Below, one piece after another: positions 1-33,048 of a stretch of DNA of 42,896 bases. The stretch lies in contig NZ_JAGGKQ010000025.1 in the NCBI RefSeq assembly GCF_017873815.1, forward strand, positions 1-42,896, written 5' to 3'. Under the pieces are notes generated by a model. The model was not told where the DNA came from and searched no databases. It was given only the letters and a program-made list of their open reading frames with translations. The position numbers and the translations under genes are program-made. Numbering within the stretch: position 1 is the first letter of the stretch; every line of letters starts with the position of its first letter. The stretch is from Halorubrum alkaliphilum (GTDB lineage Archaea; Halobacteriota; Halobacteria; Halobacteriales; Haloferacaceae).

Positions 1-212
1 CTTAAAGCGCCGTTCCGGGTTCCCTCGCGCCGTCGTCGCCGGCGCTACGCGCCGGCTGCCAGAGGGACCTTCGGTCCCTCGCGGTTCGCGCCCTTAAAAG
101 GGCGCGAACCGGGGCGCGCCACCGCGGTGTTCATTTATAAGTGGTCGTCGCAGCCGCTCACAGTCCGTTTAAATACGATCTCGTCGCTATCGATCTGATT
201 TACTCACTCCCA
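1..212 (-). repeat. Dispersed hairpin element, copy A (partial, runs off window start)
   Basis: Read on the minus strand, this begins at about 212 with GGGAGTGAGT. An AT box TATTTAAA (168-175) follows, then the motif CTGTGAGCGG, then CTTATAAAT (133-141) exactly 32 nt further on. The same layout occurs in copies B, C and D. Next come three perfect hairpins: arms 83-95/98-110 (GGTTCGCGCCCTT), 62-69/73-80 (GAGGGACC) and 38-45/49-56 (GCCGGCGC). Copy D has the same three modules in the same order. The right block would lie outside the window. The element begins 83 nt past the stop of the sensor kinase gene and has the same orientation as that gene. No protein is encoded. Confidence 0.75.
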
Positions 213-15369: not shown

Positions 15370-15665
15370 CCGACCCATCTCCCGGGAGTGATCTCGGGAG
15401 TGAGTGTATCGGATCGACCGCAACGAGATCGCATTTAAAAGGTCTGTGAGCGGTAGCGACAACCCCTTATAAACGAGGGATGCGGTGGGCGCGCGCGAGA
15501 AACGCGCGCGAGGTCGCCGGCGCTCCGCGCCGGCTGCCAGAGAATCTTCGATTCTCGCTGGAGTCAGGGGCGGTCGCCGAGCGGTTCCGGCGACCGCCCC
15601 TGACGAGGCTGGGGAGGTCTGAGGCGCGGTGCCGGGTGGGCCTCACGGCTGGGGCTTTGGAGGTG

Positions 15666-16666
15666 CGCTCTTGTGTAGCACATTGTTGATTTCAGAGAGT
15701 AGCTTTGATGGCGTGTTTGAGCGCTTCTCGTCCGGGTTTGCGGTAGAGTTCTCGTCTGAGTTGGAACGCTCGGAGATATTGTGTGAGGCGATCTTTTGAG
15801 ATGCCTCGATGCGGCGAGAGCCACCGTCGCGCCAGCGACGCGTGGCTCTCGCAGGTGTTCACGTGGACCGTCTCGTCGGCGTACTCACCGTCTCCGTGAA
15901 CGACGTATTCGCGGTCGAATTGGTCGTCTTCTTCAAGAGGATCGTACGCGCAAAATCCGTCGGTATAGACGGTGAGAGGCTCCTGCTGGCGGTCAGCCAG
16001 CAGGAGCCGAATCGTCGATTCGTCTGCGGATTTCGCCGGCACAACGTACCGTTGCTCAGTGCCACGATCCACGAAGACGAACACGGGCGGTTTGTCTTGC
16101 TCATACGTTCCGCGCCCGCGTCGAGAGAGACCGCGAGAGCGCGACCAGCGGTCGCGCTCGCGGCCTTTCAAGCCGGCAGAGACGTAAAACTCGTCAATTT
16201 CGACTGGTCCGACGAGCTCGAGTGACGGCGCGTCGAGCGCTTCGGAGAAGCGCTCGACACGCCTGTGGATCGTTTTGTAGGTGACTTTGATTTCACACTG
16301 TAACTGCCTGAGACTCGTGTTAAACCGCAAAAACGCGTAGATCGAAAACAGCCACTTGCGGAGCGCGATCTTCGAATGAGCGAAGATCGTGCCGGTTTTA
16401 TCGTTGAACGTGCGGCCGCAATCCTTACAGAGATACCGCTGAAAGTGCCCGTAGCTGCCGTTTCTGACTGTTCGGTCAGAACGGCAGTGAGGACAGGAAA
16501 CGCCGTCACGCCAGCGAACCTGCTGTAACAGGTCCGCTGCGACCGATTCCGACCCAAACACATCTAGCGGAATCATCCGTGTCGGACACCGCTGACGCGG
16601 TGTCCTTGTCCTCTTCGACTCGATAGCGACAGCTCAACAGTATCAACAATCTCCTACAGAAGAGCG
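15666..16666 (-). mobile_element. IS1595-family insertion sequence (ISH4-like), 1001 bp
   Basis: A complete-looking insertion sequence. The outer ends are inverted repeats of about 25 bp with a few mismatches: both begin CGCTCTT, continue TGTAG after one variable base, and share ATTGTTGAT. The repeat TTGGAGGTG at 15657-15665 recurs at 16667-16675 and is read as a target-site duplication of 8-9 bp. It carries one transposase gene on the minus strand. The size and ends resemble the ISH4 group. The target lies inside the right block of repeat copy B, which dates this insertion after that element. Deleting the IS and one repeat restores the unbroken motif GGCTTTGGAGGTGTTC seen intact elsewhere in the block. 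Confidence 0.9.
15692..16576 (-). CDS. IS1595-family (ISH4-like) transposase
   Basis: A 294-residue transposase with an N-terminal zinc ribbon (Cys28, Cys31, Cys50, Cys53 in CPHC...CKDC), a helix-turn-helix region (TIFAHSKIALRKWLFSIYAF) and an ISXO2-type catalytic domain. Acidic residues are visible in VEIDEFYV and VYTDGFCAY, and the third catalytic position lies in the HVNTCESHASLARRWL segment. RGISKDRLTQYLRAFQLRR is the family's C-terminal signature. The frame is uninterrupted and the terminal repeats are near, so the element could be active. Confidence 0.92.
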   Translation of the reverse strand: MIPLDVFGSESVAADLLQQVRWRDGVSCPHCRSDRTVRNGSYGHFQRYLCKDCGRTFNDKTGTIFAHSKIALRKWLFSIYAFLRFNTSLRQLQCEIKVTYKTIHRRVERFSEALDAPSLELVGPVEIDEFYVSAGLKGRERDRWSRSRGLSRRGRGTYEQDKPPVFVFVDRGTEQRYVVPAKSADESTIRLLLADRQQEPLTVYTDGFCAYDPLEEDDQFDREYVVHGDGEYADETVHVNTCESHASLARRWLSPHRGISKDRLTQYLRAFQLRRELYRKPGREALKHAIKATL

Positions 16667-17003
16667 TTGGAGGTGTTCAACACAGAGTCATCTACTTATA
16701 AGCGAACGGCTGGGGCTTTGCAGGTGTTCACCGTCGATCCGCAGTTAATCACCTATAAACGAGCGGCTGGAACGTTTGACCAGTTTCTCGCAGAGTCATC
16801 CACTTATGAACTGCCGCCAGTAACACCGCTCGATCACTTATAAACAACTACCCCAACGAATTGCGAGACGTGTTCGTCCGATTAGCGTAGTCGGAGACGA
16901 CGCCTCCGAGCAGTCCATCACGATCGAATCACCGGATTTTCTCCGATAGAAGGGCTGTAGCGGGGGTTTTTCAGTGTGGACTCCCAACCGATCGTGATAG
17001 CTG

Positions 17004-20689: not shown

Positions 20690-20811
20690 GACGCGACGAC
20701 GAGTACTGAAGGACGACGACTGCGAACACTCGTTGCTTCGACGGTTCCATTGAGCCCGTACCGAGTGAGCCGTCCGTCTCGTGTCGAGGGCGAACGATCG
20801 GTGAGCAATGT

Positions 20812-21588
20812 CGGGAGTGAGTCTCCCAAACCGGCAGCGGCGTGATCGTATTTAAAAGGAACGTGAGCGGCTGCGACGAGCGTTTATAAATAAACGATGC
20901 GGTGGCGTGCGCCTCCGAGCGCCCTTTTAAGGGCGCGAGTAGGGAGAGACCGAAGGTCTCTCTGACAGCCGGCGGCAACGCCGCCGGCGAGAGCACGCGC
21001 GAGGTCGCCGGCGCTCCGCGCCGGCTGCCAGAGAATCTTCGATTCTCGCTGGAGTCAGGGGCGGTCGCCGGACTACGTCTGGCTGTCCGAGGCGCGGAGC
21101 GCCTCGCTGCCGTGCGGGCGGCGTAGGCGTTCACGAGAGCAGCGTGGCGCGGAGCGCCACGGGCAGCCGGCGGCTCCGCCGCCGGCGACACCGCAATGAG
21201 GAAGCTTGCGACCGAGTGAGGCGCGTGGTTCGAGAGAGCGGAGCTCTCTCGTCATCGCCGGAAGTCTTTGACTTCCGGCTAGCAGCCAGAATCCAGCGGA
21301 TTCTGGCGACATTGCCAGAAATCTCCGATTTCTGGCTAGCAGTCAGAACGCGGAGCGTTCTGACGACATCCCGAAAATCTTCGATTTTCGGACGACAACG
21401 AGCGTACGCCGCCCGCACGGCTGGGGCTTTGGAGGTCTTCGCCGTCGATTAGTAGTCAACTGCTTATAAACGAGTGGCTAGAGCTTTTGAGTAGTTCCTC
21501 ATAACCTCGTCCAGTTATAAATCGCCGCCAGCAACACACTATTCCACTTATAAACAACTACTCCACCGCATTGCGAGACCTACTCCCG
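20812..21588 (+). repeat. Dispersed hairpin element, copy C (777 bp, most complete)
   Basis: The left end CGGGAGTGAGTCTCCCAA and, at the right, the complement of CGGGAGTAGGTCTCGCAA form inverted termini of about 18 bp. The left block has TTTAAAAGG at 20851 and TTTATAAAT at 20883, 32 nt apart, with GTGAGCGG between. The right block (21402-21588) begins GCGTACGCCGCCCGCACGG. It carries TTATAAAC-like boxes starting at 21463, 21514 and 21547, that is 51 and 33 nt apart, as in copy D. The middle is the hairpin array. It fills most of the interval between tfb and the arginine locus. No protein is predicted. Confidence 0.82.
20919..21391. repeat. Array of fourteen perfect short hairpins (copy C cassette)
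   Basis: Fourteen palindromes have unrelated stems and nearly constant geometry. Arms are 7-9 bp, and thirteen of the fourteen loops are 3 nt. In order the hairpins span 20919-20936, 20944-20962, 20968-20988, 21007-21025, 21031-21047, 21088-21106, 21143-21161, 21166-21186, 21231-21251, 21258-21278, 21286-21306, 21315-21335, 21343-21363 and 21371-21391. The last six all have 9-bp arms and a 28-nt period. Their spacers alternate between CTAGCAG and CGACATTG/CGACATC. The earlier ones come in pairs joined by TGACA, TGCCA or GGCA. Position 21054-21070 holds one arm of the long hairpin of copy B without its partner. Confidence 0.9.
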
Positions 21589-21666: not shown

Positions 21667-21795
21667 ATGACCGCGGAGGCTCGTCTCGGCGCCGCACTCT
21701 TCCGAGGCCGACGAGCCCCGCGACCGCGACGAGGCGTCCGACCGCCGCGACCGGATTCCGGCGCGGCGCGACGACCGGCCCCTTCGGGCCACTAA
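21667..21795 (+). CDS. 42-residue arginine-rich ORF (possible leader peptide) before argG
   Basis: The ORF runs ATG to TAA and its product has 11 Arg of 42 residues. Ten of the eleven Arg codons are CGA and one is CGT. The first part of its transcript can fold: GGCTCGTC (about 21684-21691) pairs with GACGAGCC, with TCGG/CCGA inside. Near the end, GGCCC/GGGCC form another short stem. It has a well-placed TATA box, and the next gene is argG, an arginine-synthesis gene. This pattern is what an arginine-sensing leader would look like. Against a simple cis-attenuator, argG has its own TATA box at 21902. It could instead be a structured small RNA with a fortuitous ORF. Confidence 0.5.
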   Translation: MTAEARLGAALFRGRRAPRPRRGVRPPRPDSGAARRPAPSGH

Positions 21796-32640: not shown

Positions 32641-33048
32641 CGGGAGTAAATCTCCCAAATCGGTGGCGACGAGATCGTATTTAAAAAGACTGTGAGCGGC
32701 CACGAGGCTCCTTTATAAATAGACGATGCGGTGGCGTGCCCCGGTTCGCGCCCTCAAAAGGGCGCGAACCGCGAGGGACCGAAGGTCCCTCTGGCAGCCG
32801 GCGCGTAGCGCCGGCGACACCGCAACGAGGGAGCTTGCGACCGAGTGAGGAGCACAGCGAGCGTACGCCGCCCGCACGGCTGGGGCTTTGGAAGTGTTCA
32901 CCGACGATCCGTACTCGACCACTTATAAACGAACAGCTGGAGGGGTAGAAGCGTTCACCACAGCATCATCTACTTATAAACAGCTGCCAGCAACACCAAT
33001 AGCTCGTTTATAAACAACTACTCCACCGTATTGCGAGACCTACTCCCG
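32641..33048 (+). repeat. Dispersed hairpin element, copy D (408 bp)
   Basis: The left end starts CGGGAGTAAATCTCCC and the right end, read in reverse, is CGGGAGTAGGTCTCGC. The left block has TTTAAAAAG at 32680 and TTTATAAAT at 32712, again 32 nt apart. Three hairpins follow with arms 32743-32754/32759-32770 (GGTTCGCGCCCT), 32773-32780/32784-32791 (GAGGGACC) and 32797-32804/32808-32815 (GCCGGCGC). These are the same three modules as in copy A. The right block (32861-33048) carries TTATAAAC-type boxes at 32922, 32973 and 33006, with spacings 51 and 33. It ends eight bases before the hemL stop codon. Confidence 0.82.

Follow-up and report, generated by a model that had tools for sequence, protein, structure and literature searches.

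The window, i.e. the whole stretch of 42,896 nt of Halorubrum DNA analysed here, carries an array of short hairpins (20919-21391) in the intergenic DNA upstream of argG. The array lies within a region (20801-21570) that is the main of four copies, in this window, of an element dispersed through the genome. The parts of this main copy are as follows.

20801-20898, plus strand: promoter-like 5' module GTATTTAAAAGG...GTGAGCGG...GCGTTTATAAATAAACGAT, at the same place in many copies of this genome
20883-20890, plus strand: TATA-like box TTTATAAA within the promoter-like 5' module
20899-20910, plus strand: conserved start of the RNA element, GCGGTGGCGTGC, common to the copies
20919-20936, plus strand: hairpin 1 (7 bp, TTTA loop), which is hairpin A of the element itself and a homologue of helix 2 in alignment A1
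20944-20990, minus strand: two-hairpin module 1, inverted (hairpins 2 and 3, linker TGACA), with the same arms and linker in loci L010, L012 and L016
21005-21052, plus strand: two-hairpin module 2 (hairpins 4 and 5, linker TGCCA), found in L009, L026 and L041
21053-21075, plus strand: deletion scar, the core GAGGCTGGGGAGG...GGTGGGACTCAAAGGGGC being gone between direct repeats GGGGC[G/A]GTCGCCGGA (by-eye comparison)
21071-21112, plus strand: module 3, its first hairpin degenerate and its second being hairpin 6 (21088-21106), intact in L013 and L023
21109-21128, plus strand: 5' arm of a long-range closing stem, 95% complementary to 21402-21421 (repeat search)
21139-21194, minus strand: module 4, inverted (hairpins 7 and 8, linker GGCA)
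21170-21244, plus strand: what remains of the RNA element's 3' domain (GA-rich interior helix), a match of covariance model R1 with 20.8 bits
21227-21256, plus strand: left half of a T-type module, GGTT-CGAGAGAGC-GGA-GCTCTCTCG-TCATC, which is hairpin 9
21257-21313, plus strand: type-II module, copy 1 (hairpins 10 and 11, linker TAGCA, end CGACATT), repeat family D1
21314-21370, plus strand: type-II module, copy 2 (hairpins 12 and 13), from the repeat comparison
21371-21397, plus strand: right half of the T-type module, CCGAAAATC-TTC-GATTTTCGG-ACGAC, which is hairpin 14
21402-21421, plus strand: 3' arm of the long-range closing stem (repeat search)
21419-21436, plus strand: conserved 3' tail GGCTGGGGCTTTGGAGGT, common to the copies
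21437-21570, plus strand: 3' flank with TTATAAA-like boxes

The array is composed of one native hairpin and about six modules of ~50-57 nt: two inverted, two direct (one of them degenerate), and two tandem type-II units enclosed in a T-type module. Compact copies, L048 among them, have no module 2 at this site. Relative to L009, compared by eye, the core deletion of the main copy amounts to ~86 nt. The orthologous element upstream of argG in genome G024 has kept its core, hence the loss in the copy of the window is secondary; at the same locus, the T-type module of G024 holds one type-II unit as compared to two in the window. Covariance model R1 scores the main copy weakly (24.3 and 20.8 bits), as is expected for a copy without the core. 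With its core lost, the main copy is probably no longer a working RNA.

The original prediction had described 14 short hairpins between 20919 and 21391, and exactly 14 perfect ones are counted there (perfect arms of at least 7 bp, loops of 3-6 nt). In 500 dinucleotide-preserving shuffles the same region holds a mean of 0.29 and a maximum of 3 hairpins. Restricted to arms of at least 8 bp with 3-nt loops, the count is 12 versus 0.03 expected. Regarding their dimensions, given as arms of 8-9 bp and loops of 3 nt, the loop size is right for 13 of the 14 (the first loop has 4 nt), while the arms extend from 7 to 10 bp. A strict 28-nt period had been assigned to the last six hairpins; their start-to-start distances of 26, 28, 29, 28 and 29 nt give ~28 nt without strictness, and this period is the module repeat. 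Their spacers do alternate between CTAGCAG and CGACAT(T/C).

The stems, described as unrelated, are so only in part, as 21257-21313 and 21314-21370 are tandem copies of a 57-nt unit with 70% identity. The two units differ at 5 stem pairs, all 5 compensated, and their loops change freely. Compensated arm changes, including those in the orthologous copy of another species, support the earlier claim that geometry rather than sequence is selected or homogenised. The claim gains further support from two-hairpin modules of many genomes, in whose T-type arms 675 of 687 pairs (98%) are Watson-Crick, with 2 G.T and 6 A.C. The loops of these modules are closed as C-NNN-G in 100 of 103 distinct hairpins, versus 45 of 90 isolated background hairpins.

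The array is almost certainly neither a product of chance nor a CRISPR array nor a coding repeat. Twelve long triloop hairpins where 0.03 are expected speak against the first. A CRISPR array, already rejected in the original prediction, is contradicted by repeats that are non-identical (70%) and by spacers that are the conserved part. As for a coding repeat, the period of ~28 nt is not divisible by 3, and the element is intergenic. In enterobacteria, REP/BIME arrays and naRNA4 are intergenic palindrome arrays with alternating linkers, some of them transcribed, and the REP arms are conserved in sequence. The present array is like them in its intergenic position and in its series of palindromes joined by alternating linkers. 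It differs in that its arms vary freely while geometry and linkers are kept, and in that its host is an RNA of ~250 nt.

Three further copies of the host element are present in the window.

15434-15664, plus strand: second copy, core partly preserved, R1 match at 15527-15664
32680-32897, plus strand: third copy, short and core-less, R1 match at 32773-32890
1-180, minus strand: fourth copy, cut by the contig end

Behind the copy at 15434 lie a minus-strand ORF (15692-16576) and, at 16708, another tail, which gives the impression that the 3' part of this copy was split by an insertion sequence. Searching the genome itself with the array region gave 82 BLAST matches at ~40 places and the model search 84 matches; the element occurs ~75-84 times in this Halorubrum genome. 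Common to the copies are a promoter-like 5' module with TATA-like boxes, the start GCGGTGGCG(C/T)GC, a variable hairpin body and the tail GGCTGGGGCTTTGGAGGT. Most copies of this genome hold the core GAGGCTGGGGAGG...GGTGGGACTCAAAGGGGCAG, which the main copy of the window is without. Compact copies of ~250 nt are found in other Halorubrum genomes. Of 58 copies in other Halorubrum, 24 have TATA-like boxes, clustered 12-21 nt ahead of GCGGTGG. Between 0 and 13 triloop hairpins are present per copy. A 57-nt unit composed of tail and TATA-like box is tandemly repeated in L015, L025, L032 and L040.

Further rearrangements were observed in single loci. In other families (L108, L116, L121-L124), the 3' stem arm together with the tail is tandemly repeated, the tandem spacing being ~55-75 nt overall; such tandem 3' arms could compete for one 5' arm. 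The segment between the arms GCCGTGCGGGCGGCGTA and TACGCCGCCCGCACGGC is inverted in L017, L019, L020 and L182 with respect to other copies, an inversion of the hairpin domain that leaves the closing stem unbroken. L017, a copy of this genome, also carries, at ~1460-1500, a hairpin with a 17-bp arm of nearly pure G/C runs (GGGGGCCCCCCCCCCCC), which could be an assembly problem.

For the host element, a structure of 47 pairs was examined in alignment A1, made from 28 compact copies of other Halorubrum species. In this structure, 98.0% of the cells are paired and both sides change at 28 of the 47 pairs, the copies being related and the paired cells and pair counts not being independent events. 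On four of five measures none of 500 shuffles reaches these values, on the fifth 2 of 500 do, and the signal is lost when the partners are moved by 1-3 columns. Since the structure was derived in part from A1 itself, evidence independent of it weighs more. The helix between core and tail occurs in matched versions, CAAAG:CTTTG in 98 copies, GAAAG:CTTTC in 21 (other families) and CGAAG:CTTCG in 8. One pair of the main helix is U-G in 47 cases and C-A in a single one (related copies included), which identifies the sense strand as the one that folds. Moreover, R1, a covariance model built from other Halorubrum alone, finds homologues in other families. Covariation beyond the controls and strand-specific wobble thus characterise a structured non-coding RNA, and the compact host element encodes such an RNA in strongly conserved form. 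Its TATA-like boxes suggest that it is transcribed from a TATA-type promoter of its own.

Among large structured multicopy RNAs linked to dispersed DNA elements are HEARO and omega-RNA. The host element is like them a long, branched non-coding RNA tied to a dispersed DNA element, but no associated nuclease gene was found at 80 loci and no Rfam family was matched. The comparison with Rfam 15 (window and 8 element-bearing loci) gave 0 matches above gathering score. In the literature searched the core sequence was not found in print, and broader searches gave only a paper on Haloquadratum mobile elements. In G176, G105, G053 and other genomes of several genera, the core forms divergent pairs on opposite strands, separated by ~45 nt, which would suit two RNAs with a common start region.

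Of 243 Halobacteriales genomes, 152 hold the core motif (at most 1 mismatch), the highest count being 145; named hosts are, among others, Halorubrum, Haloarcula, Haladaptatus, Natrinema, Halobaculum and Haloparvum. The reversed motif, used as control, is near zero, and outside Halobacteriales the core motif is at chance level. In two further Halorubrum genomes, the model finds 131 (G018) and 158 (G026) matches; within the genus, copy numbers range from single figures to ~150. Copies are intergenic and, by heuristic gene calls, most often in convergent gene pairs (34 of 82) and least often in divergent ones (9 of 82). A recurrent neighbour or partner gene, including tnpB, tnpA or a nuclease, was not found among 80 loci.

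These data bear on the nature of the ~250-nt RNA family, which may be a host regulatory or chromosome-organising RNA instead of a selfish element. This is a serious possibility, albeit one towards which we do not incline. The preference for convergent and avoidance of divergent pairs agree with it, as do the very conserved core and the chromosomal location: all 131 matches of G018 are on its 3.05-Mb contig, the main chromosome, viral contigs hold no exact core, the phage collection searched gave no match, and four plasmid records match. The turnover of sites at argG points the other way, an intact element being found in a minority of 30 Halorubrum examined and being missing or deleted in the rest. 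So do the differences in copy number within one genus and the chromosomal spacing, which is random (CV 1.0) with no regularity found. Owing to differences between species in the intergenic DNA on either side, comparison of occupied and empty argG loci gave no exact element ends.

The two-hairpin modules are not confined to the RNA element. Searching plasmids with the array gave a match at the 3' end of an IS605 tnpB of Halobacterium DL1, and the same units are found in further tnpB ends and at other intergenic sites of many haloarchaea. Best defined is the T-type, GTSGTT-[CGAGA...]-TSATSA-[CGAAA...]-AACSAC, a module of ~55 nt with the inverted repeats GTSGTT/AACSAC in most cases. Its junction pattern occurs in 123 of 146 genomes. 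The 50 modules extracted comprise 40 distinct first and 40 distinct second hairpins, with ends and linkers in common. Their flanks show no excess of palindromic target sites (mean 2.32 versus 2.49 in shuffles). No target duplication was seen between occupied (L183) and empty (L048) copies of the RNA, compared by eye and being different copies, and no mobilising enzyme for the modules was identified near 80 element loci. The case for mobility therefore rests on recurrence in unrelated contexts, from which the modules appear to be mobile. A few of them (L308, L312, L313) have striking palindromic flanks.

Similar features are known from SMR-A repeats of Haloquadratum walsbyi, which are ~110 bp long, have prominent inverted terminal repeats, generate no target duplication and have been reported inside the near-terminal palindromes of IS605/PATE-type elements (Dyall-Smith et al. 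2011, PMC3119063). The modules are likewise haloarchaeal, short and non-coding, have inverted terminal repeats (T-type) and are found repeatedly in IS605-type elements. They differ in length (~50-57 nt), in consisting of two triloop hairpins with variable arms, and in flanks that are not significantly palindromic; several modules lie at tnpB ends, yet flank palindromes do not exceed those of shuffles. Owing to the other length and to the lack of a palindrome preference, we do not file the modules as SMR-A, HqIRS42, HqIRS43 and HqIRS55 having been compared by description only.

The presence of the same modules in the RNA family and in IS605/IS1341 raises the question whether this family derives from IS605/IS1341, as a standalone omega-RNA or a PATE. 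A GA-rich hairpin and a TGGGG...GTTCAC-like end are also common to both. Such an origin is nevertheless quite improbable, given that R1 has no match in the tnpB loci L305, L306, L308 and L314 and that neither tnpB nor any other gene is a consistent neighbour at the 80 loci. For the same reasons, we do not file the host RNA as an IS605 omega-RNA. PATEs are dispersed haloarchaeal elements with near-terminal palindromes related to IS605 ends and without coding capacity (PMC3119063). The host element is also dispersed, haloarchaeal, palindromic and devoid of coding capacity, but it has a conserved RNA core and tail, covariation in multiple helices and no model match at the tnpB ends tested. As an explanation of the whole, PATEs were dropped in view of the core/tail covariation, the A1 structure and the missing model match in tnpB ends.

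The original prediction of one device read as structure is thus partly supported. The array is not a single device, being about six two-hairpin modules inside one copy, deleted for its core, of a structured RNA element that is present many times. To the alternative 'in DNA or RNA' the answer differs between the host element, which is read as RNA, and the array hairpins, which look like DNA-level palindromes. The DNA character of the hairpins is indicated by their loops, GNA or TNC being found in 54 of 103 distinct hairpins versus 12 of 90 isolated background hairpins. Both loop classes are balanced in the copies of this genome (43 and 43), and a loop and its inverse are both seen in 11 of 19 arms that have several loops. 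Element hairpins with a single mismatch have G.T in 2 cases and A.C in 4. The sequence d(C-GNA-G) forms an unusually stable DNA mini-hairpin. Strand-symmetric loops, loop inversion and perfect arms are better explained by template switching in DNA, or by an activity that recognises extruded hairpins, than by selection on RNA, and suggest that the array hairpins are palindromes kept perfect at the DNA level.

Conversely, the array itself could be a functional RNA, e.g. a multi-hairpin RNA that binds protein or organises the nucleoid, with arms kept by selection on RNA pairing. The host element, with its strong covariation, is an RNA of the sense strand, all changes between the tandem units are compensated, the modules occur where RNA is structured or in RNA-like surroundings (tnpB 3' ends, for example), and perfect arms could equally reflect strong RNA-pairing selection. 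We consider it unlikely, as G.T is no commoner than A.C in the hairpins, compared to 47:1 for U-G over C-A in the element's own helix, and as loops occur in both orientations. Moreover, the number of triloop hairpins differs between copies from 0 to 13, and the main copy is without the conserved core.

Taken together, the array is probably a module-loaded, core-deleted copy of a dispersed haloarchaeal structured-RNA element, its arms being kept by a process that acts on geometry. This explanation builds on the direct observation of anatomy, copy number, RNA structure, compensation and modules elsewhere. The compact element (~250 nt) would have a TATA-type promoter of its own that drives a non-coding RNA with a high degree of structure; in this RNA, the defining core GGGACTCAAAGGGGCAG would pair with the tail CTGGGGCTTTG and so enclose a long branched helix. 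The main copy would have received about six two-hairpin DNA modules, each of ~50-57 nt and with a ~5-nt linker between its hairpins, one type of them being bounded by the inverted repeats GTSGTT/AACSAC. They would have come in either orientation, some of them nested or as tandem duplicates. Each module would fold out as a pair of side hairpins. The geometry-acting process that holds the arms perfect would most likely be palindrome-perfecting template switching or a hairpin-recognising mobilising enzyme on DNA.

Only tentatively do we propose that Halobacteriales possess a previously uncatalogued class of large structured RNA, with up to ~150 chromosomal copies per genome and with self-nesting modules that are recognised and copied by shape. 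If true, RNA and modules would jointly form an RNA-structured genome element of a new kind, mobilised by machinery that recognises shape. An order-wide RNA element with up to ~150 copies, strict structure and no Rfam entry represents a large blind spot in archaeal genomics, and is either a major class of host RNA or among the most successful non-coding elements of archaea. The two-hairpin modules offer a clean natural case in which geometry is kept and sequence is not. With them one can directly test whether palindromes become perfect through template switching or through an enzyme that recognises hairpins, and in what way tnpB ends and structured RNAs cope with additional hairpins.

Downstream of the main copy, an ORF of 42 codons (21667-21795, plus strand) with 11 arginines begins ~27 nt after a TATA-like TTTTATA box and ends ~140 nt before argG. 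Arginine-rich ORFs of 39-42 aa with 11-14 Arg precede argG in 29 of 30 Halorubrum, their lengths changing by whole codons. The ORF at 21667-21795 looks like an arginine leader peptide that would serve argG attenuation, which would be unusual for archaea.
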